The notes below the pieces were generated by a model. The model saw only the letters and a list, made by a program, of their open reading frames with translations. It was not told the DNA's origin and did not search any database. The translations under genes were made by a program, and so were the position numbers. DNA of 26,047 nucleotides from a virus, in IMG/VR virus record IMGVR_UViG_3300030108_003748, positions 3,202-29,248 of that record. One strand, given 5' to 3'. Of this stretch, positions 1 through 26,047 are shown piece after piece. Each line of letters begins with the position of its first letter. Position 1 is the stretch's first letter.

Positions 1-3000
1 AAAACACCCTTGGCTCCTGACGAAGAAGGCTTGAGTGATGCTCAACGTCAATCTGTTCTTGATCTACTGGGATTTCTTGACGACTCAAGTAGCACAAGGA
101 TGCTTCGTGATGACCCTAAAAAGTGGCAAGAGACGGTCACTGATCTTGTTAAATCCCTTAAATTTAATGAGTTAGATGACAGTAAAAAGTTCCTTGATCA
201 AACAGAACGACTTTTTGTAAAAACCATAATCGACGCAAAGAAAGCTCGAAAGTCTGCGAAGTTGGTTTCTGTTGACGATGCTCGAAACGCGACAGAAAAA
301 GCTATAAGTGCCGTCCGGGCTAACTTTGAATCTCGTGCTGCTGCGGCAGCTTTTGTACGAGAAAGAGTGGCTAACAAAGCATCCATTAAAGCTGAACCAC
401 TTTTGGTCCAATTGACCGATAGGTACAAAGCTATTGGCCGAGATGAGCTTTCTCCTGAATCTTTGGAGTTTATGGACGAAGTCGTCCGTCAGTTTCCTGA
501 GTTGGAGGGTGATGACGCATTAAAGATTGCACGACTTCTCGACCAGGAGATGAAGAAGCTTGCTGATACGCGAGTCGAGGGTAAGGGTAGTCGCACAGTA
601 GCTGATAGTTTTCGTGAACGGTTTGCTGGTTTAGTTCGTGCCCCAACTGAGTCTGAGGCGAAAAAAGTTGCAGACACTAAAGTCCCACCAACAGGCAAGG
701 CACCTGAGCCGGAACCAAAACCAAAAGATATTGAGGAACCAGAGGCGAGGACTACAGCTAAACTTCCTGCAGGAATTCGTAGGGCTATGGAGGGTGATGT
801 CGACCAGGCGTCAAAAATTGATGTTGAACTTAATAAGTTGCTGACACCATTTCCGGAAGGCCCAATTGCAAATGTACCCAAACGCCGGAAGATGCCAAAA
901 CTAAAAACTCGTGCATCTGAAGGGGCAGAGATTGGACCACAAGCAACATTTGGTGCGGCTGACGGTGGGATGCCTGCTCGTGAATTGTATGATCATATTA
1001 ATGCAATGGAGAGCGGCGTTGAGGTTGCAGAGTTTCTTTTTAAACACGCAAAATTAGACTCAACTCGTACCATTATGCGTCGAATCTTACCGACGCTACG
1101 AAAGGATCCACCTAAGTTTAGTGTGGTTGACAACCTTAACGACACAGATGGTGTCGTACTTGAGGCACGAGGTGCGGTTGGGCAGTTTAATCCTGCTGAC
1201 AATAGTGTTTTGGTTCGGGGCGCAAACTGGCCCAAGACGGGTTTGTCCGAAGAGGTAATTACCCATGAGTTACTTCATGCCGCTACAGCAAAATTCATTA
1301 CGTCAAACCCCAACAATGCTTCCGTTAAGGGACTGAAGTCTTTGAACGACGAAGTCATGGTGATTCTTGAGCGCCAGTTGACTGACTTAACTGGTGTCGA
1401 AGCTCAGCGAATTCAAAACGTCATTTCAAATATTAAGGGTAGACCAGAAGAATTTATTACCTATGCGATGACTAATCGTCGGTTTCAAACAATCCTTAGT
1501 GATATTGAAGTCGCCCCTAAGAAGACGGCGTGGAATAAATTTACCCGACTCGTGGCGAAGTTGTTTGGTTTCCGAGGAGACGGGGAGACCAACGCTCTTG
1601 CTCGAGCGATTGTGGCGAGCGAAAAAGTTATTAGTGGTGCGGCTCGGTTTGCAGATGTTTCAGCCGACGCGACCCCCGTGCTTAAGTCTGCGGTTGAGGC
1701 AAGGGCTGCGACTGATTTGATTGAACTGTCTTCGCCCTTTATTGAAGATGCTGCTCAAGGTGGTGGAATTTCTTTGCGTGTTGATACCGCATTTGATTCT
1801 CCTGTGCTCAAGGTAGACTCGGTTGAAATACCAACATTACTTCGTGGTCAGGGTTTGGGTGTTGATCTTTACCTTCGAGCACTTAAGTATGCGCAGGATC
1901 AAAAAGTAGGCTTTCTAAGCGACCTTACTCCTAATGCAGAAGCTACAAGGGTATATGGTTCATTAGAGAAATTAGGGGTTAAATTTGATCGTAAACCAGT
2001 TGAGGACGCTCAAGGTAACTTAGTCGACGCATTTTTTATCAGCCCCAGAGACCTTGCTAAGGTTGATTTAGACTCTGCAGTTCTACGTAACAGTGAGCGT
2101 AAGATTGGTGAGCAGGTACCACTGTTTATTAAAAAGGGACCTGAGTTTGCGGGTGACCCGCTTGTCGTAGAGTTTCTTGAGAATGGTCAAGCGATTATTC
2201 GTGCCGTGGGCGACACTGCGACGGTCGAAGATTTTGTGCGTGCTATTGGTAAGGTTGCGCGTAGAGATCTTGACGAGAAAGGAATGAAAGCTGTTGTCGC
2301 TTGGTTGGCGACAAAGGGTATTAAGGTTGGATATCAGGGTGCGTCATTTACGGCAGATGATGCCGCATCGATTGAGCGGGCTGAAGATGAGTTCGCTAAG
2401 GCATTCAATGAGTACGTTGAGTCTGGTTTAGCTGATAAACCGGAACTCGTTGGCCCATTCAGCACTGTACGTGAGTGGGTTGCCGACAAGTACGCGGCAT
2501 TAAAAGGTGCCGAGGTTGACGGCGCAACACTTGATATTGATTCTAATTTAAAGCGGTCCCTGGACGGCCTTCTGCGCGTCCCCGCAAAGCGTGTAGGGAT
2601 GCCGAACATTGTTTCAATTGCAAAGGATGCACTATTCAGTCCTGAGTTGGGTGGCACCTCAGTCGACATGATTGATGAGATTGCTCGAGAGAGCTTCCGC
2701 CTGGGTTACCCAATCTCTAAGAAAGATCTGAAGAAACAATTCACTAAAGCAGCAGAAGCTTATAACTCTGGTCGTAAAGAAGACGCGGTTATTAAGCTAC
2801 CTGGACCAATATCTATCAGGGGCTGGACGGCATCTAACGTTAAGGGCGGTAAGAAAGAGTTCACTTTAGACGAACTGGCTGATATTCAATTCAGCCTGGA
2901 GCAGGCAAAGCGGCTCGAAGTACAGGAAGTTGGTCGAATACCTCTTGGTGGCGTAGAAAAAACAATACAAGAACGCACCCCCTCAGAAATGGTTGATCAG

Positions 3001-6000
3001 TCCGTTAGTCGTAGTGGCTTCGGTCGGGCCATGAGAATGATGTATCTTGGTGGTGACGCGTTTGACGATATGCGTGGTTTGCCGCCTATTGTTCGCGACG
3101 CGATTATGGCTGGTGCTCGAAGAGTTCAACAGGCCGTGGGTGATGCTGTAACGCTTGTCGCAGAGGGAGACATCGTAAATCTTACTCGCCTTGTGACAGG
3201 GGAGAAAGGCGTAAAGTTTGCGAAGGGTGGTCGTGCCGCGATTAGTGCTGGTCACGACTCGATGGCTTCAGTCGCGAATATGTTGAAACGTTATTTCGAG
3301 TCTATCGATAAAGACGACTTGGACTTACTTGAAACATTTATTCGTCGTGTTCGGTTGGTTAAGGGTCCAGGTAAGACAGCCAAGGTAATGAATGATTTTT
3401 CTCCTGAAGAACGAGGGAAAATTTCTGAAGCCTTTAATGACATTATTAACGGGCCTCAGGCGTCTCGGTTTGTCAGTGAGGCGTTCCAGGCAGCAGGTCT
3501 TAAACCAACACGGATAGAACCAAAGTTTTTTACTCAACCCGCAGAAGGGTTGGACCCTGGCGGGTTATTAGAAATTCTTATGTACTACGGTAACGTTACC
3601 GGAAGAGTTGACCCCGCCAACAACGGTAATCTGACCTTGTTTAGTGAAACACTAAAGCTACAAGGAAAAACCGCTCAAACATCTCAGAATACTTTCAATG
3701 GTATTTACCAGGACATCAATCAATTTTTTGCTGACGATCCGCGAGTAGCTAACCGTATTGCCATCTTGATTCACGGTCACGGTATGGCGGATGCAGCGAA
3801 AAAAGATTGGGTCAAGCTTGGTGTTGCCGCAGATGAAAAACTCGCAACATCTATGCGTCAGTACATTGTAGGGGAAGCAATTGATCCTGCGGATTCAGTG
3901 CGGGTGAAAAATGCGTTTGAGTCTCTTGGCTACAATCCCCAGGTTGTCGAAGGCTACAATCTTGACGGCATCAAGATCTACGTACCAGAAGCAGCAAGAC
4001 GTAGACTCAGCATGGCGCTTTCGCAAGCACAGGATCCTGATTTGCTGAAAGTTGAAGGTATGGATGCTATCTCAGCCTTTAACGAGATTGCTGCTGTCCC
4101 CGAGAAGATAATTTCTGGTGGCGGTACAAACAGTTCGACGGCACTTAGCTTTGCGTTGTTCTACCGGTACATGAAGACTCGCATGGTTCGTGGTCACTTT
4201 GTTTTGAAGTCTCGGTACTTTTGGATGAACCAGTTTGACCATTTCAACCAGGTGGCGACTAAGGCTGGGTTTAGAACTGCTCTTATTTCATCCACCAGAT
4301 TGTTTACTCAAAACGTCTTATCTAACCCAGTTGGTCAAGCTGCTGTGTTTGCTGCTCGTCGGTCGGGTAAGGGAGAATCGGTCGAAGCTTTTCGTCAGGC
4401 TCTTCAGGCTGGTGGGGACAAGGGAGCCGAGTGGGCGGGCAAACTGACTCGTGGGTCTAAATGGCACATCAAGCTTAATCCTATTCTCGAAGGAAAAGAT
4501 GGAATTGTAATCCTTGGTGGTAAACCATACCGGAACGAAGATATTCGTCGGGTTGCTCTTGAGGCGGGTATTTTTGCTTCCTTTGATACGAGTCAACTGG
4601 GAACTAAAATTCAGAATGTCGGCAACTTGTTTCTTCAGACCAGTGAAGATAGCGGTCGATTGACCCAAATGGGTAAGGATATCTTGGGCGACATCAAAGG
4701 AGCTTCAGAGGATATTGCTGAAGCTTGGGCAGAGCGTGAACGATTAGGTTGTATGATTACCTTGATGGAAGGTGGTCTTGATCCTCAAACAGCCGCAAAG
4801 ATAAGTATTGATGCTCTGTACGATTACGCCGGTAGCATGTCGAAAGCAGATAGGAACTTTCTCCTTAATCTTTTCTTCCCCTTCTGGGCTTTCCAGAAAA
4901 ACGCTAATAGGCAAATCTTCGATACGATTTTCAGTCCTGAGGGCGCATATCGTTTAGGTGTTATGCGTCGAGCTTACGATAAGGGTAGCGAATACCTCAG
5001 TTACTTGGCCTATGACGCTTATGTAGATGAGAACGGTGTTGCGACTGATTCACTGCCGCCTGACCTGAAAAAAAGTTATTTCTCTCTGAAGAAACAATTA
5101 CAAGATGTGTACGGTGAAAACGGTAAGATACCGCCACCAATTCAAGAACAAATTAGACTGTACGTTTCGTTTTCTCAAGTAAGTTTTACTGGTGGTAAAG
5201 CTCTTGAGGTTGATCCCGATATAGAAGAACAAATTATTGATATCGCAGCGGCACTTAAAGGTGAAGATGGTCAGTCTTTGGCTTTAGATCGACGCGCGTT
5301 GGCTGCGTATTATTTTGCTCGACCGGATAAATCGAGTAAAGCAACTTACCTTAGGGATCGAATTAGCCTGGATCTACCATACTTTCCTGAAGACTATAAA
5401 GGTCCAGAAACTAATTATGAGCCACCAATAGAGTTCCAAAAAAGTATAAAAGCTTGGAATGACTTGTATCGGTCAAGAAGTCCGGAGGCTCCGTATTTTT
5501 CTTTGTTCCTACCCGATACAACATACGCAGCCGGATTTAATCATGGAGCGTACTTGTTTTCGGCAAAACTCCTTACACTACAAAAAATTGAGGATATGGG
5601 TGATCGTTGGTTTACTGACGAAGATGATGGATCCGAAGCGATTAGTCCTTTAACACCGCTAAACGCTTTATTGAACCCTTCTCGAGCACCGATTTTATCT
5701 GAAATACAGGCTTCTTTAGGTACGGGCGGTGCGACTATTCCGAAAAGAGTCCACCCTGATTTGGTTAATTTTTACGACTGGACCAATATTGATTTGCTTG
5801 AATTAGACGAAAAAGAAGATTTGTTTAATCTTATGTTCAAGCAAGAAGAGGCGGAGAAAAAAGGAGAGGAGCCTGAATCTCTACCTCGAAAGCCTATTCG
5901 TTCAGATGTTCAGCCAGGTAAAAAGTACTACATGATGCCGGGTGTCGGTCAAATGCTGTTCGTAAATAGTCCCCTCGGCGAGCTTAATGATATTTTGCTC

Positions 6001-6192
6001 CGTGCAGACAAAACGGGAGCCGAAGATGCTGCGGGCGTTCGGGGTGAGATACAGCGATGGGTGCGTCTTGCCAGCGGTCTGGACACCAGAGAGACTACAA
6101 GAGAACGGACAGCGATGTCAGAAAAGTACCGGGCACAAGAAGAAAGCCCTGCTGTACTGGAGAAGACTCTGAAGAGTGAGGACTTAAAATGA
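1..6192 (+). CDS. Giant multidomain virion protein (polyvalent/ejected type), 5' partial
   Basis: The frame is open from the first base, so the true start lies upstream; residue numbers here count from the TTG at position 10 (2,060 aa). Residues 1-300 are charged and helical, with a Pro/Glu/Lys linker near 225-250. A zinc metallopeptidase motif HELLH lies at 419-423, followed by the EEF at 480-482 expected for the third ligand, as in phage polyvalent metallopeptidases. Residues about 575-680 look like a GNAT acetyltransferase (RGQGLG at 612-617). Near 1618-1640, FFPFWAFQKN resembles the C-terminal associated domains (LPD38-like) of large polyvalent proteins. Known relatives are packaged in the capsid and injected with DNA, or act as internal virion proteins. 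I infer that role; domain assignments are by eye. The stop overlaps a possible small ORF at 6189. Confidence 0.72.
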   Translation, partial: KTPLAPDEEGLSDAQRQSVLDLLGFLDDSSSTRMLRDDPKKWQETVTDLVKSLKFNELDDSKKFLDQTERLFVKTIIDAKKARKSAKLVSVDDARNATEKAISAVRANFESRAAAAAFVRERVANKASIKAEPLLVQLTDRYKAIGRDELSPESLEFMDEVVRQFPELEGDDALKIARLLDQEMKKLADTRVEGKGSRTVADSFRERFAGLVRAPTESEAKKVADTKVPPTGKAPEPEPKPKDIEEPEARTTAKLPAGIRRAMEGDVDQASKIDVELNKLLTPFPEGPIANVPKRRKMPKLKTRASEGAEIGPQATFGAADGGMPARELYDHINAMESGVEVAEFLFKHAKLDSTRTIMRRILPTLRKDPPKFSVVDNLNDTDGVVLEARGAVGQFNPADNSVLVRGANWPKTGLSEEVITHELLHAATAKFITSNPNNASVKGLKSLNDEVMVILERQLTDLTGVEAQRIQNVISNIKGRPEEFITYAMTNRRFQTILSDIEVAPKKTAWNKFTRLVAKLFGFRGDGETNALARAIVASEKVISGAARFADVSADATPVLKSAVEARAATDLIELSSPFIEDAAQGGGISLRVDTAFDSPVLKVDSVEIPTLLRGQGLGVDLYLRALKYAQDQKVGFLSDLTPNAEATRVYGSLEKLGVKFDRKPVEDAQGNLVDAFFISPRDLAKVDLDSAVLRNSERKIGEQVPLFIKKGPEFAGDPLVVEFLENGQAIIRAVGDTATVEDFVRAIGKVARRDLDEKGMKAVVAWLATKGIKVGYQGASFTADDAASIERAEDEFAKAFNEYVESGLADKPELVGPFSTVREWVADKYAALKGAEVDGATLDIDSNLKRSLDGLLRVPAKRVGMPNIVSIAKDALFSPELGGTSVDMIDEIARESFRLGYPISKKDLKKQFTKAAEAYNSGRKEDAVIKLPGPISIRGWTASNVKGGKKEFTLDELADIQFSLEQAKRLEVQEVGRIPLGGVEKTIQERTPSEMVDQSVSRSGFGRAMRMMYLGGDAFDDMRGLPPIVRDAIMAGARRVQQAVGDAVTLVAEGDIVNLTRLVTGEKGVKFAKGGRAAISAGHDSMASVANMLKRYFESIDKDDLDLLETFIRRVRLVKGPGKTAKVMNDFSPEERGKISEAFNDIINGPQASRFVSEAFQAAGLKPTRIEPKFFTQPAEGLDPGGLLEILMYYGNVTGRVDPANNGNLTLFSETLKLQGKTAQTSQNTFNGIYQDINQFFADDPRVANRIAILIHGHGMADAAKKDWVKLGVAADEKLATSMRQYIVGEAIDPADSVRVKNAFESLGYNPQVVEGYNLDGIKIYVPEAARRRLSMALSQAQDPDLLKVEGMDAISAFNEIAAVPEKIISGGGTNSSTALSFALFYRYMKTRMVRGHFVLKSRYFWMNQFDHFNQVATKAGFRTALISSTRLFTQNVLSNPVGQAAVFAARRSGKGESVEAFRQALQAGGDKGAEWAGKLTRGSKWHIKLNPILEGKDGIVILGGKPYRNEDIRRVALEAGIFASFDTSQLGTKIQNVGNLFLQTSEDSGRLTQMGKDILGDIKGASEDIAEAWAERERLGCMITLMEGGLDPQTAAKISIDALYDYAGSMSKADRNFLLNLFFPFWAFQKNANRQIFDTIFSPEGAYRLGVMRRAYDKGSEYLSYLAYDAYVDENGVATDSLPPDLKKSYFSLKKQLQDVYGENGKIPPPIQEQIRLYVSFSQVSFTGGKALEVDPDIEEQIIDIAAALKGEDGQSLALDRRALAAYYFARPDKSSKATYLRDRISLDLPYFPEDYKGPETNYEPPIEFQKSIKAWNDLYRSRSPEAPYFSLFLPDTTYAAGFNHGAYLFSAKLLTLQKIEDMGDRWFTDEDDGSEAISPLTPLNALLNPSRAPILSEIQASLGTGGATIPKRVHPDLVNFYDWTNIDLLELDEKEDLFNLMFKQEEAEKKGEEPESLPRKPIRSDVQPGKKYYMMPGVGQMLFVNSPLGELNDILLRADKTGAEDAAGVRGEIQRWVRLASGLDTRETTRERTAMSEKYRAQEESPAVLEKTLKSEDLK

Positions 6193-17716: not shown

Positions 17717-17755
17717 GCAGAAAATCTGCGTCTGTTAGTCTGAACAACCCAAAGC
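17717..17755 (+). promoter_or_regulatory. Hairpin plus AACAACCCAAAGC element, copy A
   Basis: A perfect inverted repeat GCAGA-AAA-TCTGC (17717-17729) is followed by AACAACCCAAAGC (17743-17755), which ends 22 bases before the Sak4-like ATG; GGAG at 17768-17771 serves as ribosome-binding site. The 13-mer recurs before other genes of this module. A TTGACC at 17708-17713 is present upstream but no good -10 accompanies it. Confidence 0.4.
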
Positions 17756-17777
17756 TATTACCAACCTGGAGAAACTG

Positions 17778-18755
17778 ATGACATCTGATAATGAGCTTCC
17801 AACCGTGATGATTACCATCTACGGTAAACCAAAACAAAAGAAAACCAGTGACGCACTTGCAGCATTTCCGACGGCGTTGTTTCTCGGTGTGCCATCTGCA
17901 GTAACTCTTGTTGCTCAAAATGAATTGGGGTTCACCCCATCAGTTCACCCCGACCCACCTAAGAATCTTGTTGAGCTTGTAACGCTTCTTCGTTCTCTCG
18001 CAGACACAGGCAAGGCTCTTGAGTATGGTGCTGTGGTGGTTGATGACCTCAGTCACATGTGTAAGCGATCGATGTTGGAGTGGACTGATCAGGCACCTAC
18101 AGGTCGAAGCGGTAAAAAGGATAGGTTTTTTCCTTACCAACAACTTAATCAATACCTGCTTGAAATAGCTCATTTGTCTCGACACCTCGGCGTTCACTTA
18201 GCGATGACGTTTCACGAGCGCATGCCAGGTACAAATGCGGACGGTAGGTTCTGTCCTGGTGGACCAGATGTTCCTTCGCGAAACCAAGTTGAGACTCTTC
18301 CCTCTTGGTGCGATGTAAATATTCGTGCCATGGTGGACCCCAACTATCCAGACCCATGGTTCCCCAGTATCTATTATTGCGACCCGACAAATCCTGAGTG
18401 GGTAACCGGTGATCGCACAGGTATCTGCACCAGAAAGACTCCTGGAAACTTGAGAGAAATACTTCGCGCAAGCGAAAGTAACTATCGTTTGAGTCGACTT
18501 CCTGGGCTTGAATGGCAAGATGAGGTTGCTCAATCTGTAGCAGACGATATGTTGGAGGGTACTGCTGTTCGGGATGCGATTCAGTCAGCAGTGTCAGGTC
18601 GGACTGACAACCCGCTACATCTACGTTGGGCATGCCAAGATGGCATCGCTCGTGGCGTTCTGTTGCAGCAGGCTAAAAGGTCTCTATTTGACTTTCAAAA
18701 GACAGAAACAAAGGCAGCAAACTCACCAACTTTGCCGCCTCCACCAAGCAATTAA
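17778..18755 (+). CDS. Sak4/RecA-like P-loop ATPase with atypical Walker A
   Basis: The 325-aa product begins with a beta strand leading to YGKPKQKKT (residues 15-23) in the position of the Walker A loop, and has a Walker B hydrophobic strand AVVVDD (Asp89-Asp90). This layout, with the P-loop close to the N-terminus, matches phage AAA_24/Sak4-type proteins, which are RecA-fold single-strand annealing or strand-exchange proteins. The Gly that normally precedes the catalytic Lys is a Lys here (G16-x4-K21-K22-T23), so ATP binding may be altered. The C-terminus is a Pro-rich tail. The next gene encodes a candidate ssDNA-binding protein, a common pairing for Sak4. Confidence 0.6.
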   Translation: MTSDNELPTVMITIYGKPKQKKTSDALAAFPTALFLGVPSAVTLVAQNELGFTPSVHPDPPKNLVELVTLLRSLADTGKALEYGAVVVDDLSHMCKRSMLEWTDQAPTGRSGKKDRFFPYQQLNQYLLEIAHLSRHLGVHLAMTFHERMPGTNADGRFCPGGPDVPSRNQVETLPSWCDVNIRAMVDPNYPDPWFPSIYYCDPTNPEWVTGDRTGICTRKTPGNLREILRASESNYRLSRLPGLEWQDEVAQSVADDMLEGTAVRDAIQSAVSGRTDNPLHLRWACQDGIARGVLLQQAKRSLFDFQKTETKAANSPTLPPPPSN

Positions 18756-18768
18756 TTTTTAACCCCCC

Positions 18769-18793
18769 GGTCATTCTGACCAACAACCCAAAC
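18769..18793 (+). promoter_or_regulatory. Hairpin plus AACAACCCAAAC element, copy B
   Basis: GGTCA-TTC-TGACC (18769-18781), a perfect inverted repeat, abuts AACAACCCAAAC (18782-18793). The element ends 13 bases before the chosen ATG at 18807, with TGGAG (18796-18800) between. It matches copies A and C except for the loss of the G in AAAGC. Confidence 0.45.
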
Positions 18794-18806
18794 AATGGAG
18801 CCTATC

Positions 18807-19403
18807 ATGGCCATTAAAATTTCCGGCAGCGCATTTCAAGGTATTAGTTCTCTGGGATCTTCTGTTCCTGAGCCAGGTGTTTACCCCGTATCAATCGTAA
18901 ACATTGAGACTGGAGCAAACGACAAGCCCGGTACTCGTCGGTTTCACGTACAGTTCGAGAACGGATTCAAGATGTTTACGTTCCTTAGCCTTCCTTACGA
19001 CGACAACGGTAACGCTCTCCCAGGTCTTACTGATAAGCAAGTTCGTGGCCGCATGGCAGCGCTTCGAACTGTTCTTGAGTCTCTTGGATACTCCAAGGAA
19101 AACATTGAGACTGCCCAAGAGATTAACGACTCTTGGTTCCTGGCTGAAACAAACAACGGTCGCTTGGCCTACGTTGAGTTTGTTCCCGGTCAAAAGGGTG
19201 TACCTGGCTCGTACAATGAGATCAGCAAGTTCATGACTAAAGCTCAATACGAAGCTATGAAGTCAACGACAGAGGTAAGTGCTTCACAAACTACTGAAGC
19301 TCCTGCTGTTGTCGAGGCGACTCCAACTAACGGCGCCCCTGTACCTCCTGCAGGTGTATCATTGCCTCCTCCTGCGAGTGCGGCACAAGGTATCGTGAGC
19401 TAA
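18807..19403 (+). CDS. Candidate single-stranded DNA-binding protein
   Basis: I choose the ATG at 18807, six bases after GGAG; an ATG at 18795 overlaps that site. The 198-aa product has a beta-rich N-terminal domain of about 140 residues (VYPVSIVNIETG, RRFHVQFENGFKMFTFLSL, RLAYVEFVPG) that could be an OB fold, followed by a low-complexity Ala/Pro/Thr/Val tail from about residue 150. Phage ssDNA-binding proteins commonly have an ordered domain plus a flexible tail. The usual acidic tip (DDxF-like) is absent, which lowers confidence. Its place between the Sak4-like ATPase and the DNA polymerase supports a role at replication forks. Confidence 0.5.
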   Translation: MAIKISGSAFQGISSLGSSVPEPGVYPVSIVNIETGANDKPGTRRFHVQFENGFKMFTFLSLPYDDNGNALPGLTDKQVRGRMAALRTVLESLGYSKENIETAQEINDSWFLAETNNGRLAYVEFVPGQKGVPGSYNEISKFMTKAQYEAMKSTTEVSASQTTEAPAVVEATPTNGAPVPPAGVSLPPPASAAQGIVS

Positions 19404-19406
19404 TTA

Positions 19407-22187
19407 GTGTCGTCCTTCAACCCTAAGAGTTGTGGTGCTAAATGCGACATCTGCCCTTTGGGGCCAGAGGGACCACTACACAAAGATGAATGGAGGCCCG
19501 TCGGTGGAGAGTTCCATCGGGGGGCCTCTATTATTGCTATTGCAGAAGCCCCTGGACCAGATGAGACACAACATGGTCGACCTCTTGTTGGTCGTGCTGG
19601 GAGTGAGTGGGGAAATGCATTGACGTTGTCTAATCGAAGTCGCCCAGATGTTGACTTAGACCATGTCATATCATGCAAGCCTCCAGGCCAAGAATCAGGT
19701 TCTTGGAGAAGAATGGAGAAATCGTTAGATCGATTGAACCGAAAACGTGTGAAGCAGGGAAAGGATCCCTACCCTCATCCAGCTATTTGCTGTAGGCCGA
19801 GACTATTAAATGTAGTGTCTAAATACGACAAGGTCATAACCCTCGGTAAGACAGCCACAACTGCACTGACGGGTCAGTCATCCAGCATACAGTCAATGCG
19901 TGGTGGACCCATGCAGGTGGACGACAACTGGGATTGGGTTCCCGAGAACGGTACGCGAAAGCTTCTACCAATGTTGCACCCATCTTTTATATTAAGGGCT
20001 CCGAGTTGGCGGCATGTGTTGCACTCCGACATGGCAAAGGCATTTCGTTGGTTTGATGGAACTCTAAGGTGGACTGATCCTGACTCTGTTATCAACCCAA
20101 CACCACAAGAACTTCGGGAGTGGTTGGCTCAGCCCGCTCCTTTTTGGGCTTACGATGTAGAGACCGACGGGATTGAGCCTCTTGAGTGTAATCTTCGCAC
20201 GATTGCCATAGCTATCCCTGACTTGAATGAACGGGGGTCAGCGTCACGAGACACGGTTTCTCAAAACGCACGCGCTATTGGGGTGGGGCTTCTATCTACT
20301 GACGGGCACACAAGATTGTACCCACCTTCCCAAGAGCAAGAGATTCTTGAGATCCTCCGACAAGCTTTTACTGATGGACGTGTCTGGGTTGGTCACAATG
20401 CTGGTTACTATGATCGCATGGTCATTGAGGCACAGCTTGGCGTAACGCCATCGCCTCTCGTAGATACATTATTTCACGCGCGCTTCCGCGCCCCAGATTT
20501 ACCGAAAGGCTTGAAGACTATTGGCTCTGTGCTGACAGATGTCGAGCGGTGGGAGACAACAGAGAAGGGCACAAAGATTTCTACAGGAAGCCAGGATGAC
20601 ACTGAGCTTCTTCGGTACAACATTATCGACTCAACTGTAAACGCACGGATAGTCGTTCCGCTTATTGATGCGGCGACAAATGCTGGTGCGTTCAAACCTA
20701 TATCGGATGGACTCAAGCCATCAGGGTGGCCGATAGAGCGACCATGGAACTTAAACGAAGTTGACCATGCCACACAAGAGATGTGCGTTGGGATGCACAA
20801 GTCAGGTATCTGGGTAGATCAGAAACTCAGAATGGACTTGGAGTGCGAGTACGACATCTCAGTAAAGAAGAGGTACAAGAACCTTCAATCTTTAGCACAA
20901 GATGTTGGACTTAAAAACTTAGACGCCGACTCAGTAAACGAGTTGAACCCAGGTAGTGCCGACCAAATACGAAACCTCTTATACGAGCGTTGGGGTCTGG
21001 GCATTCCAGCGTCGATGGATGCAAGGGAGTTTTACACGGAGACTGGTGCGCCTGGGACTGGGGACGCAGTTCTTCGTGCTCATTTGGCTTCGGGTAGATT
21101 GAACCATAATCAAGAATCATTTGTGAAAGAGCTTCGGTTGTATCGGCGTGAGAAGAATAAGATTTTGGGTACGGTGTTGATTCCGTTACGTCGTAGGGAC
21201 TTCGACCCGAAGAAGGGGTTGGTCCATGGAGATGGTCGAGTGCGTTCGACTTGGAACGCTCACGTAACGAGTGTTGGAAGGCTATCAAGCTCAGGACCTA
21301 ATCTTCAGAACATTGGTAATAGAAAGGGTCAGGGTAGATTAAAGTCAGTATTTGCTGCGCCTCCTGGTCGGATACTCGTTGGAGCGGATCTTGACCAAGC
21401 ACATCTTCGAATCACTGCGTGCTACTGGCAGATACCTCGACTACTGGAATGCTTTGACACAGGTAAGGATCCTCACAATCTGCTGGCTTACGATGTGTTT
21501 GGAAAAGACTTTAAGAACGCAAGCGGTTGGGGACCTGATGGTTTCAGCTTAGATCGGAAGCCTACAGGTGGTGAAGCGAAAGCCATGCGTGATGTCATGA
21601 AGACATTCCGTTATGCGTCTATTTATTGGGCTGATCCCAGCACTGTATGGCAAGTACTTACAAGTACTGAGACTGATGATGGTCGTATGCCCTATCTCAA
21701 ATTCGAGACACGAGAGGTAAGACACTTTCACAACAAGTGGTTGGAAGCTGAGCCTGAGTGGGAAAGTGCGTGGAAGAAGATGGTGCAAACGTACGAGCAC
21801 CAAGGTCACATGTTTGAGCCGGTGTTCGGTAGACGTTCTGGTCCTCTATCAGACGGAAAGAAAAACGAAGTGGTAAACTTTCCTATCTTGGCCGCAGAAT
21901 CTTCTATTATGAGATTGGCTGAACAGGAGATAATCAACGCGTTTCCGTTTGATTATGCCGGTAAGGGTACTGGGATGATCCATCAGTGCCACGATTCTAT
22001 CGCTGTGGAGATGCCTTTACCTGATGGGCTCGCTCCTGATTGGCGACCTGTAAGCGGAGAGCCCTTGCCGACTGCTATCGAAGAGGCGCGACGTGTTGTT
22101 GAAGAGTGTATGACGGTAACCATCCCTGGTTGGGAGGTTGCTATGACTGCTGAAGCCGATGTCGGTCGAAGCTTAAAAGATGTTTAG
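19407..22187 (+). CDS. polA: UDG / 3'-5' exonuclease / family A DNA polymerase fusion
   Basis: A GTG start gives 926 aa. Residues 1-225 resemble a family 4 (Fe-S) uracil-DNA glycosylase: Cys9, Cys13 and Cys16, AEAPG (46-50) with GRPLVGRAG, CKPP (Cys90), Cys128/Cys129 and LHPSFIL (His191). Residues 245-415 are a DnaQ-like exonuclease: DVE (Asp250, Glu252), HNAGYYD (330-336) and YNIID (404-408). From about 450 follows a family A polymerase: motif A ADLDQAHLRI (660-669), motif B Arg728-x3-Lys732-TFRY (Tyr736), and motif C QCHDS (His862, Asp863). The KTFxY form is that of T7 polymerase, so this is the replicative polymerase, with a Tyr where E. coli Pol I has Phe762. Trp741 replaces the usual Gly after motif B's Tyr. 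A glycosylase joined to a replicative polymerase would couple uracil recognition to synthesis; whether the UDG part is active is unknown. Confidence 0.88.
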   Translation: MSSFNPKSCGAKCDICPLGPEGPLHKDEWRPVGGEFHRGASIIAIAEAPGPDETQHGRPLVGRAGSEWGNALTLSNRSRPDVDLDHVISCKPPGQESGSWRRMEKSLDRLNRKRVKQGKDPYPHPAICCRPRLLNVVSKYDKVITLGKTATTALTGQSSSIQSMRGGPMQVDDNWDWVPENGTRKLLPMLHPSFILRAPSWRHVLHSDMAKAFRWFDGTLRWTDPDSVINPTPQELREWLAQPAPFWAYDVETDGIEPLECNLRTIAIAIPDLNERGSASRDTVSQNARAIGVGLLSTDGHTRLYPPSQEQEILEILRQAFTDGRVWVGHNAGYYDRMVIEAQLGVTPSPLVDTLFHARFRAPDLPKGLKTIGSVLTDVERWETTEKGTKISTGSQDDTELLRYNIIDSTVNARIVVPLIDAATNAGAFKPISDGLKPSGWPIERPWNLNEVDHATQEMCVGMHKSGIWVDQKLRMDLECEYDISVKKRYKNLQSLAQDVGLKNLDADSVNELNPGSADQIRNLLYERWGLGIPASMDAREFYTETGAPGTGDAVLRAHLASGRLNHNQESFVKELRLYRREKNKILGTVLIPLRRRDFDPKKGLVHGDGRVRSTWNAHVTSVGRLSSSGPNLQNIGNRKGQGRLKSVFAAPPGRILVGADLDQAHLRITACYWQIPRLLECFDTGKDPHNLLAYDVFGKDFKNASGWGPDGFSLDRKPTGGEAKAMRDVMKTFRYASIYWADPSTVWQVLTSTETDDGRMPYLKFETREVRHFHNKWLEAEPEWESAWKKMVQTYEHQGHMFEPVFGRRSGPLSDGKKNEVVNFPILAAESSIMRLAEQEIINAFPFDYAGKGTGMIHQCHDSIAVEMPLPDGLAPDWRPVSGEPLPTAIEEARRVVEECMTVTIPGWEVAMTAEADVGRSLKDV

Positions 22188-22195
22188 GAGTTGCG

Positions 22196-22627
22196 ATGAG
22201 TACGTCACAATGGTTTTTAGCTCATTCCAAACAGGATGATCCCGAAGAGATTGAACTCTGGTGCCAAGAGTTAACTGAATCTCTTAGCGGTGATGGTTGG
22301 AGTGCAGTCGTTATCTCGGGCAGAGATGACTACGAAAATAGGTCAGCGGCATTGGGTGGATGGAAAGCCTGGTGCGAGGATATTCCTTGCGGTATAGACT
22401 ACACGGGCGCCCCTCTATACCATGGTGTCATAGTTCCGGTGGACTCAGTGATTGAGGATCCGACAGTCGGTAAAGCTACGGCACAGATACTACAGGGATT
22501 TTTGAACGAATCGAAGCACGTACACGCTTGGTGCCCAGACTCGAAGTCATTTAGGGAGGTGACTTCAGTCGAACAAATTCCAGAAGATAACTGGACCGCA
22601 TGGGCTAGATTAGTGTTTGAGTCTTGA
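22196..22627 (+). CDS. Small Rossmann-like protein (TIR/deoxyribosyltransferase/SLOG-like?)
   Basis: The 143-aa product has AGGAG five bases before its ATG. It opens with a strand-helix FLAHSKQDDPEEIELWCQEL, reminiscent of the start of TIR domains, and later has VIVPVDS, then TVGKATAQILQGFLNESKHVHAW, a strand-helix-strand pattern like the nucleotide-handling region of nucleoside 2-deoxyribosyltransferase or SLOG folds. A GRDDYENRSAALGGW segment (about residues 42-56) is distinctive. I do not recognise a named family. Related folds cut or transfer nucleoside or NAD bases, so nucleotide metabolism or interference with host nucleotide signalling is possible. The last two bases of its stop codon fall inside the promoter for the next gene. 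Confidence 0.4.
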   Translation: MSTSQWFLAHSKQDDPEEIELWCQELTESLSGDGWSAVVISGRDDYENRSAALGGWKAWCEDIPCGIDYTGAPLYHGVIVPVDSVIEDPTVGKATAQILQGFLNESKHVHAWCPDSKSFREVTSVEQIPEDNWTAWARLVFES

Positions 22628-22650
22628 CAATGCGGTAAGAGTTTTATAAT
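22624..22650 (+). promoter_or_regulatory. Consensus -35/-10 promoter for the Rad50-like gene
   Basis: TTGACA (22624-22629) and TATAAT (22645-22650) are both perfect hexamers, but the spacer is only 15 bases against the usual 17, which would limit strength or require a partner. The -35 box overlaps the stop codon of the gene before. Transcription would start near 22657, on the AACAACCCAAAGC element, so the Rad50-like gene can be expressed independently of the upstream operon. Confidence 0.6.
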
Positions 22651-22655
22651 AATCA

Positions 22656-22668
22656 AACAACCCAAAGC
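22656..22668 (+). promoter_or_regulatory. AACAACCCAAAGC element, copy C
   Basis: This is an exact copy of the 13-mer before the Sak4-like gene. It ends 18 bases upstream of the Rad50-like ATG and is followed by CCTGGAGG, the ribosome-binding site. It lies at the predicted transcription start of the promoter just upstream, so here the element would be at the 5' end of the mRNA. Confidence 0.45.
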
Positions 22669-22686
22669 AACTGTCCTGGAGGACTT

Positions 22687-24687
22687 ATGCGACCATATGT
22701 AGAAAGCGTCTATAGTAATTTAAAATCCCCACTACCTGGTGGGGAGGCTTGGAAGATTGATCTAAGTCAACGAACACTATTTGTAGGATCAAATACAAGT
22801 CACAAGAGCGGGGTCATTCAGTCAATTGAATTAGCTCTTGCAGGTTCAGCCGATGATATCTTTGGTCGAAGCGCTGTTTCTGACGCCGCATTGTTGTTGA
22901 CTCTTGCGCCTAATGATGAGTTAGGTGTTTCAGCCACCTTGTCGGATCAGCAGGTCGCTTCATTCAATGCCAAGCGTGAGGGGTCTAAAGTTAAACGACC
23001 TACGCATGATGGCCCTGGACCAGCAACACTTGTGCATCGATCGGTGGCCTCGGCTTTGTCAGGCTCTCCTGCGTCTGCTCGTAAGGCATTCTTGGCGTGG
23101 TCAGGTAACAACATTGATCAAGACAGCATTGTTGCCTACTTACCAGAAAGTCTGCAGGGCAAGTACAAAGACATCGCAGAGCATAAAGGTAGAGGTAAGT
23201 CGTCGGTGGAGACACTTATCGATGTTGCGGCTTATGCGGGTCAAAGACAACGTGAGGCTTCGAAGGAAGCGAAGGGTGCAGAGATTATACTTGAGAGCCT
23301 TGGCGATAAAGTAGAAGCTCGGCCAAGCGACGAAGACATGACGAAGATGCGCTTTGCTGTGGCAGAAGCTCGAGAGATACTTGACTTGTCTGTTAACCAA
23401 GCGAAGGGTGGTTTGAGTGAGGCCGACAAAGATCAACAGATGGTCGCCCTAAACAAGAAGCGCGATGCTTGGTTGGAGTGTAAAAGCGAGGCTGAGTTTT
23501 CTCTCAGGGACCTCAAGTCTCAACTACCTTACAAGGGTGAGAATGTTGACAACGCAATAGCTATCGTAGACATCGCGGTAAAGCATGAGCTTTCGGTTTG
23601 TCCTGTGTGTAGTTCTCGTGTTGGTTTGAAGCATCTAAAGAACTGCCAGGGCTTTTATCAGGCTCAGCACAGACAGTGGGAGGACAAGTCTAAACAGGTG
23701 CTCGAGTCGATTAGGTTGACTGAAGAGCGGATTGTGGGCTTCGATAGAAATGTTGTAGCGGTTGACTTTGAAATAGAAGAGCTAAACAACAAACCGATTA
23801 CGAACTTGGATTCTCGAGCTATCCCAATTACTGATGCTCAGTCCAGACTGCAAGTCGCTATGGATGCTCTGACCAAGATGGATGTCAGTTGTTCTCAGTG
23901 GGACAATATTGCGTCGGCTCGTAACAAAGTCGTTAGTATGCAGGCAGATGCAACAACCTATAAGGAGCTTAAGTCTGCTTGTGAGGTTGCGATTGGTAAG
24001 CTCTTGGGTGAGCAGGCTAAGTCATTTTCATCTCGTGTTCAGAAGTACCTACCAAAGCAGTGGGACTTTAATATTGAGCTTGTGGATGGTGGTCGTGAAG
24101 TGTTCCGCATGGGTCTGATGCGTGACGGAAAACTGCATGCTGCATTGTCTGGTGCCGAGTGGACTTCTGTTGTTACTGCTATCGCGATGGCTGTGACAGA
24201 TAGTCTGCCCGATGACTACCCTGCTGTACTGATCCCAGAGGATCGTGCGTGGGATGGTAAGACGTTGGCCTCCGTTATGCGTGGGTTCTCTTCTTTCGAT
24301 GGTCAGGTGGTCATGGCAAGTACGACGCGCCCAGCAGGTAAGACTCCTAAGGGTTGGACCATTATTGATATGGACGAGGTGAGTGCTTCTTGGCTTGGAT
24401 CTACTGATGAGAAAGTTGTAGAAGAAGTTGTCGAACAAACGAAGCCTGTAAGTAAGACCAGCCTCAACCATGCGAGTGGTGGATTCCGAGTGACTAGCCG
24501 TAGTGCTTTGATACTTGAAGAGATGGGTTTCGATAAAGATGACATTCAGTTGATGTCACGGGACACTGTGTCGCAAATTATCAAGTCAAGTATTTCGCCT
24601 GATAACGTTCGCGTAAAGGAAGATGGTAGTTTTTATACAGTGAAGAGCGGTAACGTTCTGACACTACCTCCATCACCTAAAGCGTAG
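22687..24687 (+). CDS. Rad50/SMC-like ATPase with CxxC hook
   Basis: The 666-aa product has an N-terminal GSNTSHKS loop (34-41) in the Walker A place, then a long charged helical middle (about 190-460) interrupted by CPVC at 305-308, like the Rad50 zinc hook. The C-terminal ATPase half has a signature ALSGAEW, followed by LIPEDRAWD in the Walker B/D-loop position. Rad50-like proteins bind DNA ends and work with an Mre11-type nuclease in repair and replication; no Mre11-like gene is visible, so the Cas4-like nuclease is a possible partner. Two consensus residues differ: the Gly before Lys40 is His, and the Walker B Asp is Pro while the Glu remains. It has its own promoter at 22624-22650. Confidence 0.7.
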   Translation: MRPYVESVYSNLKSPLPGGEAWKIDLSQRTLFVGSNTSHKSGVIQSIELALAGSADDIFGRSAVSDAALLLTLAPNDELGVSATLSDQQVASFNAKREGSKVKRPTHDGPGPATLVHRSVASALSGSPASARKAFLAWSGNNIDQDSIVAYLPESLQGKYKDIAEHKGRGKSSVETLIDVAAYAGQRQREASKEAKGAEIILESLGDKVEARPSDEDMTKMRFAVAEAREILDLSVNQAKGGLSEADKDQQMVALNKKRDAWLECKSEAEFSLRDLKSQLPYKGENVDNAIAIVDIAVKHELSVCPVCSSRVGLKHLKNCQGFYQAQHRQWEDKSKQVLESIRLTEERIVGFDRNVVAVDFEIEELNNKPITNLDSRAIPITDAQSRLQVAMDALTKMDVSCSQWDNIASARNKVVSMQADATTYKELKSACEVAIGKLLGEQAKSFSSRVQKYLPKQWDFNIELVDGGREVFRMGLMRDGKLHAALSGAEWTSVVTAIAMAVTDSLPDDYPAVLIPEDRAWDGKTLASVMRGFSSFDGQVVMASTTRPAGKTPKGWTIIDMDEVSASWLGSTDEKVVEEVVEQTKPVSKTSLNHASGGFRVTSRSALILEEMGFDKDDIQLMSRDTVSQIIKSSISPDNVRVKEDGSFYTVKSGNVLTLPPSPKA

Positions 24688-24692
24688 TCGTT

Positions 24693-24914
24693 ATGCGGTG
24701 CGCCTTATGTGGAGCAAAAACGAAGGTGGTTGATTCACGTCATAGTGATTCAACCGCCACGTTTAAGGGGCAAGGTCTCGTAAGAGAACATGTCTCCTGG
24801 TACACCCGCGACTGGGTATGTCGAAGGCGTAAATGCACCAAGTGTCAATCCGTTGTTGTGACCGTCGAGATCTTACTGGATGATCTCAACAACGGTTGGA
24901 CACCAAAGACTTAA
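24693..24914 (+). CDS. NrdR-type zinc-ribbon protein
   Basis: The 73-aa product starts MRCALCG and shows C3-x2-C6 and C48-x2-C51 with VVDSR (12-16), CRRRKCTKC and a trailing TVE. This is the pattern of the zinc ribbon of NrdR, the repressor of ribonucleotide reductase genes (MRCPxCG...VxDSR...RRRRxCxxC). The ATP-cone domain that makes NrdR about 150 aa long is missing, so it cannot sense nucleotides in the usual way. Small phage homologues of this type are common, with unclear roles. No good ribosome-binding site precedes the ATG, six bases after the upstream stop. It is convergent with, and overlaps by four bases, the histone-like gene. Confidence 0.65.
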   Translation: MRCALCGAKTKVVDSRHSDSTATFKGQGLVREHVSWYTRDWVCRRRKCTKCQSVVVTVEILLDDLNNGWTPKT

Positions 24915-25273
24915 TGCTCTTCTACTGAATGGTTTCTTACCGTTCGGAAACTAAACGTCCCATTCGTTCCTACTAACTTTCGTAGTGCGGGAGGGGTGCG
25001 ACTACCTCCACCATCTTTTGGAGCTTCTGTGACAATCCGTAGTGCTTCTTCAAAACGACTATCACTGGTAAAGTTGATTGAAAACTGTCCTGCATTGGTA
25101 GCTACATGTAGTGTGCGGTGCTTCATTACTGGTGCTGGTGCAGGGGCAGCCTTCTTCGGCGCGGCTTTAGGTGCAGCTTTTTTGGGTGCTGCTTTCTTTG
25201 GTGCGGTCTTTTTTGGTGCAGCCTTTTTCTTTGGTGCAGCCTTTGCCTTCGTCGTTTTCTTTGTCGTTGCCAT
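24911..25273 (-). CDS. Histone H1-like Lys/Ala/Pro-rich protein
   Basis: The 120-aa product starts at an ATG six bases after AAGGAG. Residues 1-48 are a tail of repeated (A)APKK units, typical of the C-terminal tails of histone H1 and of bacterial AlgP/HctB-type proteins that bind and condense DNA by charge. Residues 50-120 are a separate, beta-rich domain (RTLHVATNAGQFSINF, TFSFRTVRNH) with no recognised family. The tail being N-terminal is unusual. It likely coats or compacts phage or host DNA, or binds nucleic acid more generally. A candidate extended -10 promoter lies at 25299-25307. Confidence 0.7.
   Translation of the reverse strand: MATTKKTTKAKAAPKKKAAPKKTAPKKAAPKKAAPKAAPKKAAPAPAPVMKHRTLHVATNAGQFSINFTSDSRFEEALRIVTEAPKDGGGSRTPPALRKLVGTNGTFSFRTVRNHSVEEH
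25140..25250 (-). repeat. Imperfect 15-base repeat encoding AAPKK
   Basis: The region encoding the Lys/Ala/Pro tail consists of repeated GGTGCxGCxTTxTTT-like units on the plus strand (reading as AAPKK on the minus). Copies differ by a few bases and some are lengthened by one or two codons. Such tracts can expand or contract by slippage, so tail length may vary between related phages. Confidence 0.6.
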
Positions 25274-25282
25274 GGTGTCTCC

Positions 25283-25375
25283 TTATGACGGTGAGGTAAG
25301 TATAACAGGATGTAGTGTGTTCGGGTTTGACACGGTAACGATCACCCCGATAGAGTTGGTAAGTCTGGTTCTCAT
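25283..25375 (-). CDS. Possible 30-aa leader peptide upstream of the histone-like gene
   Basis: A minus-strand ATG at 25375 opens a 30-residue frame (MRTRLTNSIGVIVTVSN and onward) ending at a TAA that directly precedes the AAGGAG site of the histone-like gene. A CCTGGGGG sequence and a copy of the CAACCCAAAGC element lie upstream at distances similar to the other copies. There is no recognised family. The candidate promoter at 25299-25307 would fall inside it, so both cannot be simple. Support is limited to arrangement. Confidence 0.25.
   Translation of the reverse strand: MRTRLTNSIGVIVTVSNPNTLHPVILTSPS
25299..25307 (-). promoter_or_regulatory. Candidate extended -10 promoter for the histone-like gene
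   Basis: Minus-strand TGTTATACT matches TG-N-TATAAT with one mismatch in the hexamer. The expected start near 25292 gives a leader of about 20 bases containing AAGGAG. There is no convincing -35 box. Confidence 0.4.
25327..25356 (+). promoter_or_regulatory. Candidate rightward promoter for the edge gene
   Basis: A perfect TTGACA (25327-25332) is followed after 18 bases by TAGAGT (25351-25356, four of six matches). Transcription would start near 25363 and run through the hairpin at 25405-25435 before the ATG at 25492, giving a leader of about 130 bases. Confidence 0.35.
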
Positions 25376-25394
25376 TTCCCCCAGGAATGGTCCA

Positions 25395-25405
25395 GCTTTG
25401 GGTTG
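25395..25405 (-). promoter_or_regulatory. CAACCCAAAGC element, copy D (minus strand)
   Basis: On the minus strand CAACCCAAAGC repeats the last 11 bases of the element seen at 17743, 18782 and 22656. It directly follows the hairpin at 25405-25435 and ends 19 bases before the ATG of the possible 30-aa ORF, again with a CCTGG-G sequence between. Confidence 0.35.
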
Positions 25406-25435
25406 CATCGCCTGAGTTCCCTGCTCAGGCGGTGC
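25405..25435. repeat. Strong 12-bp stem-loop
   Basis: GCATCGCCTGAG (25405-25416) and CTCAGGCGGTGC (25424-25435) are complementary with one G-U wobble around a 7-base loop TTCCCTG. There is no T tract after it on either strand, so it is not a standard intrinsic terminator. It lies in the leader of the edge gene and directly upstream of element copy D, which suggests a regulatory or RNA-processing role. Confidence 0.6.
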
Positions 25436-25491
25436 GTTCCTGTACTGATGTTTCGACTTAACTTTTGGACTTTTATTTGTAGGTGGTGAGA

Positions 25492-26047
25492 ATGGAAAGT
25501 GATGGCTCAGCGACGGTAGAAGAACCTCGCAGCGCAGATAATGCTGAGCCCAGCGAAGAAACGATTGACCCAGCATTAGAGATTCTTTCTCGGTTGTTGG
25601 AGTCGCTTCAGACTGGTGGACGTGAAGACCATAGAGCGGCTTGGTCCGCTATCCAAGATCCCGATGTAATGGCTACATTGGCTGACGGATGGCGAACTAA
25701 TGAGGCAAACCTCAGTGCCGCGCTATCAACACTCGAGACTGTACCTGGACAAGTACAACGAACTCGTAACCTACGATCGGCTGTTCGCAGGTTGGCAGAA
25801 GAACGCAGTCGACGAGACGCCGATGCTCTCATTGATCAACTGGAAGAGCAGCTTGGTCAGCCGCAAACGATTGCACAGCTTTTATCCACAGGGGCTCCCC
25901 CTCCTTCTGTTGTTCCGATTCAAACGCTCGAGACTTTACAGGCTCCACGCGGATACGATCTTGACGCGTCAGGGGTATATCGATTGTCAGCGACAATGGA
26001 TGGGCAGTTGAATCGTACACGTATTGCTCCTGCTCCGATCTTTATCG
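25492..26047 (+). CDS. Protein of unknown function, 3' partial (possible primase/helicase N-terminus)
   Basis: An ATG at 25492, five bases after AGGTGG, opens a frame that stays open to the window edge (185 codons). The first ~40 residues are acidic and flexible. Residues about 70-130 are a charged helical region with coiled-coil features (RRLAEERSRRDADALIDQLEEQL), and near residue 160 comes APRGYDLDASGVYRL, followed by RIAPAPIFI. A glycine-tyrosine/GV segment followed by a Pro-rich strand recalls the N-terminal part of DUF927-type primase/helicase proteins, but that is a weak resemblance. The location beside replication genes fits. The catalytic part, if any, lies outside the window. Confidence 0.5.
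   Translation, partial: MESDGSATVEEPRSADNAEPSEETIDPALEILSRLLESLQTGGREDHRAAWSAIQDPDVMATLADGWRTNEANLSAALSTLETVPGQVQRTRNLRSAVRRLAEERSRRDADALIDQLEEQLGQPQTIAQLLSTGAPPPSVVPIQTLETLQAPRGYDLDASGVYRLSATMDGQLNRTRIAPAPIFI

Follow-up and report, generated by a model that had tools for sequence, protein, structure and literature searches.

Most phage-encoded small RNAs (sRNAs) of known role belong to cultivated phages that infect enterobacteria, Vibrio, or Pseudomonas. The sar RNA of P22 and the OOP RNA of lambda are cis-encoded. Both are short antisense RNAs that tune phage genes, and sar blocks the translation of ant (PMC12197685). In phages P1 and P7, the c4 RNA blocks the translation of a phage mRNA by pairing around the ribosome-binding site; the complementary sequences are probably in loops, and c4 controls a single antirepressor mRNA, for immunity (PMC12197685). 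Two other phage-encoded sRNAs, PreS (from lambda) and VpdS (from phage VP882), are Hfq-dependent. PreS targets the host gene dnaN, and VpdS acts on both host and phage RNAs (PMC12197685).

Here, we describe a viral locus that probably encodes an sRNA that represses the translation of the phage's own replication and recombination genes. Like c4, this predicted RNA would pair at the ribosome-binding site of phage mRNA, but c4 has one target, while here there would be at least two replication or recombination mRNAs that share a target tag at their 5' ends. Whereas sar and OOP are each antisense to one phage mRNA, the RNA gene in our locus lies 2.6 and 7.6 kb from its predicted targets, and the RNA matches them imperfectly, in two parts. 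PreS is similar in being phage-encoded and concerned with DNA replication, but unlike PreS or VpdS, the predicted targets here are the phage's own genes. Phage RNAs that block phage ribosome-binding sites are already known, so what would be new is an sRNA that recognizes a common 5'-terminal tag on the phage's own replication and recombination mRNAs.

We analyzed a window of 26,047 nucleotides, which spans bases 3202-29248 of an IMG/VR virus record 31.5 kb long. We found no near relative of this virus among cultivated phages: its Rad50-like gene had no match in the "phages" database, and the best matches for its polymerase in that database were under 28% identical. We also found no relative of the polymerase in host genomes (genome_contigs). 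(Separately, positions 10-6192 hold an open reading frame of giant virion size, 2847 amino acids in G005; it weakly matches phage virion RNA polymerase, phrog_2206, 8.7e-11.) The features of interest are:

17733-17741, plus strand: extended -10 (TGTTAGTCT) of the Sak4 transcript; TGnTAnnnT is mostly retained, at a fixed distance 5' of the repeated element, in clade-I relatives
17743-17755, plus strand: copy A of the element, a conserved candidate target site where the Sak4 mRNA is predicted to begin (helix at 17745-17756); top predicted target among 88 gene starts
17765-17771, plus strand: CCTGGAG, the Sak4 Shine-Dalgarno sequence and, in the predicted duplex, a second contact of the sRNA
17778-18755, plus strand: gene for a Sak4-like ssDNA annealing protein (phrog_124, 7.8e-12), a predicted target
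22624-22652, plus strand: promoter of the Rad50-like gene (TTGACA, 17 nt, TAATAA), conserved in relatives
22656-22668, plus strand: copy C, a conserved candidate target site where the Rad50-like mRNA is predicted to begin (helix at 22658-22668); second-best predicted target of 88
22687-24687, plus strand: Rad50-like gene (a name from the sequence-only reading), a predicted target with relatives in clades I-VI
25327-25356, plus strand: sigma70-type sRNA promoter, TTGACA (25327-25332), 18 nt, TAGAGT (25351-25356), matching the consensus at 10 of 12 positions
25362-25445 (ends approximate), plus strand: predicted sRNA that would act in trans, or the primase/helicase gene's terminated 5' leader, from conserved plus-strand structure and promoter
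25378-25385, plus strand: C-rich loop of the stem-loop (CCCCCAGG), the predicted anti-Shine-Dalgarno contact, pairing with CCTGG of leaders A and C in predicted duplexes
25394-25405, plus strand: seed linker AGCTTTGGGTTG, which is copy D on its correct strand; can form 12 contiguous pairs with the leader of Sak4 and 11 with that of the Rad50-like gene
25405-25435, plus strand: terminator-like 3' hairpin with a covarying 12-pair stem
25492-26047, plus strand, running past the end of the window: DNA primase/helicase gene downstream of the sRNA, from its translation and an orthologue match

The element is a 13-mer that occurs exactly at 17743-17755 (copy A) and 22656-22668 (copy C). Copy B, at 18782-18792, has 11 bases in common with it (AACAACCCAAA) and diverges afterwards; copy D is the minus strand of 25395-25405 (CAACCCAAAGC). 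Allowing up to two mismatches, there are six sites, versus 0.78 expected, and none of 100 shuffles reached six. (The remaining two near-copies, at 4148 and 17150 (minus strand), are within coding regions.) A sequence-only reading of this window had described a repeat in four equivalent copies. The repeat is real, and the distances it gave to the start codons (22, 13, and 18 bases for A, B, and C) are correct, but the copies are not equivalent: A and C are conserved leaders, B is not conserved, and D belongs to the opposite strand. The TGGAG or TGGGG that it saw after every copy is, for the TGGAG 3' of A, B, and C, just the Shine-Dalgarno sequence.

To compare leaders, we used about 90 related viral loci gathered by Sak4, polymerase, and Rad50-like queries. 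Copies A and C are retained in essentially all of the clade-I relatives that have these leaders. The Sak4 leaders of close relatives retain a TGTTAnnnT-type extended -10, about 6 nt, CCCAAAG(C), and the Shine-Dalgarno sequence, and relatives' Rad50-like leaders retain TTGACA, 17 nt, TAnnnT, 7-8 nt, AACCCAAAGC, and then GGAG. Because the layout from promoter to element is retained, we place both copies at predicted mRNA 5' ends. For A and C, the proposal of a phage-specific leader element that lies at the mRNA 5' end and defines a regulon holds up. It does not extend to copy B: relatives' SSB leaders show AACACAAAAAATGGAG, ATCAACATCAACAACGGAG, and others at this place, and we rejected B as a full member. 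The inverted repeats noted upstream of three copies also differ. The one before A (17717-17729) is not conserved, and we rejected it as part of the element; before B (18769-18781), there is a conserved but unrelated hairpin; and at D (25405-25435), the repeat is conserved, shows compensatory changes, and forms the 3' hairpin of the predicted RNA.

Three observations about these leaders stand apart from the element. Between Sak4 and SSB, at 18763-18781, there is a CCCCCC and a hairpin, GGTCA-TTC-TGACC. Most clade-I genomes retain GGTC-N4/5-GACC despite a varying loop, so it resembles an RNA hairpin and is perhaps a control element for SSB. In the clade of L055 and L056, the sRNA loop CCCAUGAAUGG (G005:60856-60905) is an 11-nt perfect complement of the region around the SSB start codon, CCAUUCAUGGG, so SSB may be an additional, lineage-specific target there. 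Clades I and IV conserve a GCGGTA or TGGTAA block in the spacer of the Rad50-like promoter (22630-22637), which is perhaps an operator. (The Rad50-like gene itself matches no family in Pfam or PHROGs.)

Copy D had been taken as a fourth leader, on the minus strand, before a small open reading frame. We rejected this because the frames and start codons on that strand vary between relatives. Since the promoter and hairpin on the plus strand are conserved and the minus-strand frames are not, we read D as a small RNA or a terminated leader, with a linker that is the reverse complement of the leader element. Across 12 aligned clade-I genomes, the -35 and -10 blocks of the promoter are invariant and the spacer is variable. 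In a promoter scan of 8 kb, the sRNA promoter scored second, after the promoter of the Rad50-like gene. The invariant parts around D in the 12 genomes are, in order, TTTGACA-N16-GATAGAGTT, GTCTG, the C-rich loop, CTTTGGGT, and the hairpin with its compensatory changes; between the stem-loop and the hairpin, the linker reads AGCUUUGGGUUG. In the alignment of the hairpin, 96% of cells are paired, and 14 cells are changed on both sides, versus 4.7 in shuffles. (We rejected another pairing from RNAalifold, AGAGTT with GGCTTT, as an artefact that arose because the alignment contained the -10 box.) The U tract 3' of the hairpin is weak in clade I and strong after the equivalent hairpin in clade IV. 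The seed is predicted to be about 30-40% unpaired and is partly paired with bases 3' of the hairpin. No Rfam family matched the window at its gathering score, and the best match below threshold covers the hairpin alone (21.1 bits, with 72.2 required).

The RNA (25362-25445) is encoded separately from its predicted targets (at 17743 and 22656). About 55 nt 3' of the hairpin, the primase/helicase gene begins; its orthologue at L119:7547-9682 matches phrog_8841 (5.8e-92) and DUF927. Two small genes lie nearby. One (24911-25273, minus strand) encodes a small protein rich in Lys, Ala, and Pro, is divergent from the sRNA, has its own extended -10 (TGTTATACT), and matches no family. The other (24693-24914) has an NrdR-like zinc ribbon (PF22811, 1.1e-7).

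The linker and loop of the sRNA are complementary to the 5' end and the Shine-Dalgarno sequence of leaders A (12 contiguous pairs) and C (11), and the predicted duplexes are extended by CCAGG in the sRNA against CCTGG at the Shine-Dalgarno sequence. We scored targets by ranking gene starts and by ungapped helices instead of by sliding RNAduplex across the genome, which is too noisy because G+C-rich coding regions score well. Of the contig's 88 gene starts, Sak4 has the best duplex energy (-37.8 kcal/mol) and the Rad50-like gene the second best (-36.4 kcal/mol). In most clade-I genomes, the genome's own Rad50-like duplex is stronger than almost every one of 1000 dinucleotide shuffles of the leader (p = 0.001-0.015, or 0.03 in L055). 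In L008, for instance, UUCCCAGG in the sRNA and UCUGGGAGG in the leader of the Rad50-like gene form 10 contiguous pairs. (Two accessory genes on the minus strand, L052:12937 and G006:24163, have leaders that contain ACCCAAAGCC and are possible further targets.)

Our main reading, to which we give a probability of about 75%, is that the D locus encodes a trans-acting RNA that base-pairs with the Sak4 and Rad50-like mRNAs and represses their translation. The sigma70-type promoter just 5' of the primase/helicase gene would make an RNA of about 80 nt that ends at the hairpin. The linker and the C-rich loop would pair with the first nucleotides and the Shine-Dalgarno sequence of both mRNAs, which would cover the ribosome-binding site and repress translation in trans. 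We infer, from the sequences, that the RNA is produced, that its 3' end is at the hairpin, and that the outcome is repression. Pairing at the mRNA 5' end and the Shine-Dalgarno sequence points to translational repression; this step draws on how bacterial sRNAs generally act. For the leader element, the best explanation is that the D-encoded RNA targets it. A protein-binding or processing site, as had been suggested for the repeat, is unsupported, with D encoding the antisense partner.

The comparison between clades, which the polymerase tree keeps apart, bears on this reading. The sRNA promoter is also found 3' of the Rad50-like gene in clades II-VI. (We rejected L153, L155, L158, and similar contigs as chance matches, since they show the bare promoter pattern but lack the RNA.) In clades II, III, and V, the linkers differ from that of clade I, yet they match their own Sak4 and/or Rad50-like leaders. 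In clade II (L066, L067, L092, and L095), the linker is UCAGGGUUU, with an upstream CUCC that faces the Shine-Dalgarno sequence; the Sak4 leaders have GAACCCUGAGU or AAACCCUGAAC, the Rad50-like leaders have AAACCCUGA or GAAACCCU, and Sak4 is the top-ranked gene start at all four loci. There are matched changes even within this clade (GUUCAGGG/CCCUGAAC in L066 versus GCUCAGGG/CCCUGAGU in L092), and another, for Sak4, in L053 (GACUUUGGG/CCCAAAGUC). In clade III (L112), UUGGGUUUAGGGU pairs with AUCCUAAACUCAA in the Rad50-like leader (13 contiguous pairs, including G-U) and, with one bulge, with ACCCUAACCCAA in the Sak4 leader. By total energy, the Rad50-like leader of L112 is not significant (p = 0.33), although the contiguous helix is long. 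In clade V (L075), GGGCUCAGGG pairs with CCCUGAGCCU in the Sak4 leader, and the Rad50-like leader has no match to its own RNA. L070 likewise shows no match. Clade IV has the promoter and clear terminators, and complementarity is weak or absent in most of it: we found it in L040 (p = 0.007) and marginally in L043 and L063 (p = 0.054). Clade VI (L141:15295, L142:12179, and L143:15546) retains the promoter but has neither the sRNA nor the terminator hairpin, so gain or loss of the RNA took place within the primase leader.

We also took five representatives from four clades and swapped their RNAs, which weakened the pairing. For Sak4, and likewise for the two targets taken together, no other of the 120 assignments equalled the observed one; for the Rad50-like leader alone, the figures were 5 of 120 (ungapped helix) and 3 of 120 (cofold). 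These figures ignore kinship. Within clade I, own pairs beat swapped pairs for either target (0 of 5000 permutations were as good, again ignoring kinship). Overall, the seed differs in kind on different branches, and it covaries with its targets in clades I, II, III, and V and fails to in most of clade IV. It appears that the RNA and its landing sites changed together across related uncultured aquatic phages.

The position of the RNA in the primase leader makes another explanation possible, and this is the main rival: the RNA could be chiefly the 5' leader of the primase/helicase mRNA, with the hairpin as an attenuator. The Sak4 and Rad50-like mRNAs would then act through their 5' ends, relieving termination in trans and so coordinating primase expression with their own. 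The RNA is directly 5' of the primase gene with the hairpin between them, and clade VI retains the promoter as a plain primase leader. In the predicted fold, the GGG of the seed lengthens the hairpin at its base, so pairing with a target could loosen it. But the seed is outside the 12-pair main stem, which pairing would leave unbroken, and the extra contacts with the Shine-Dalgarno sequence fit repression of the targets, not antitermination. We consider this explanation unlikely. A bolder proposal, which we hold only tentatively and think will more probably prove wrong, is that this is an undescribed family of phage RNAs, derived from the primase leader, that acts as a two-way switch. The terminated leader would silence the translation of Sak4 and the Rad50-like gene in trans, and abundant target mRNAs would titrate or open the leader and release primase expression.

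It is quite improbable that a regulator of phage or host origin uses the element as an operator in double-stranded DNA, direct at A and C and inverted at D. Every copy is near a promoter, and repeats of this type are commonly operators, but the element begins at the transcription start in A and C and about 40 bp downstream of it in D. Furthermore, matches between clades need G-U pairs and bulges (L112, L040, and L054), which make no sense for DNA sites; the complementarity reaches into the Shine-Dalgarno sequence; and the linker is held at one position of an RNA fold. The original model of four equivalent mRNA leaders with a processing or protein-binding element describes A and C well as leaders with the element at the mRNA 5' end, but it is very hard to sustain given the plus-strand promoter at D, the unconserved minus-strand frame there, the unconserved copy B, and the different but still complementary sequences that other clades carry instead of the element.

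If the two-way switch exists, then one RNA-RNA contact would time recombination against the priming of replication, and its seed would have been rewritten together with its targets as the phage lineages diverged. The several independent rewrites of seed and target amount to a natural compensatory-mutation experiment. The locus also suggests a general way to search for such RNAs: look for a motif that is common to several mRNA leaders and has an inverted copy beside a terminator-like hairpin elsewhere in the genome. For our main reading, a conserved predicted sRNA in uncultured aquatic phages, aimed at their own replication and recombination genes, suggests that these viruses control their own replication genes by an RNA.
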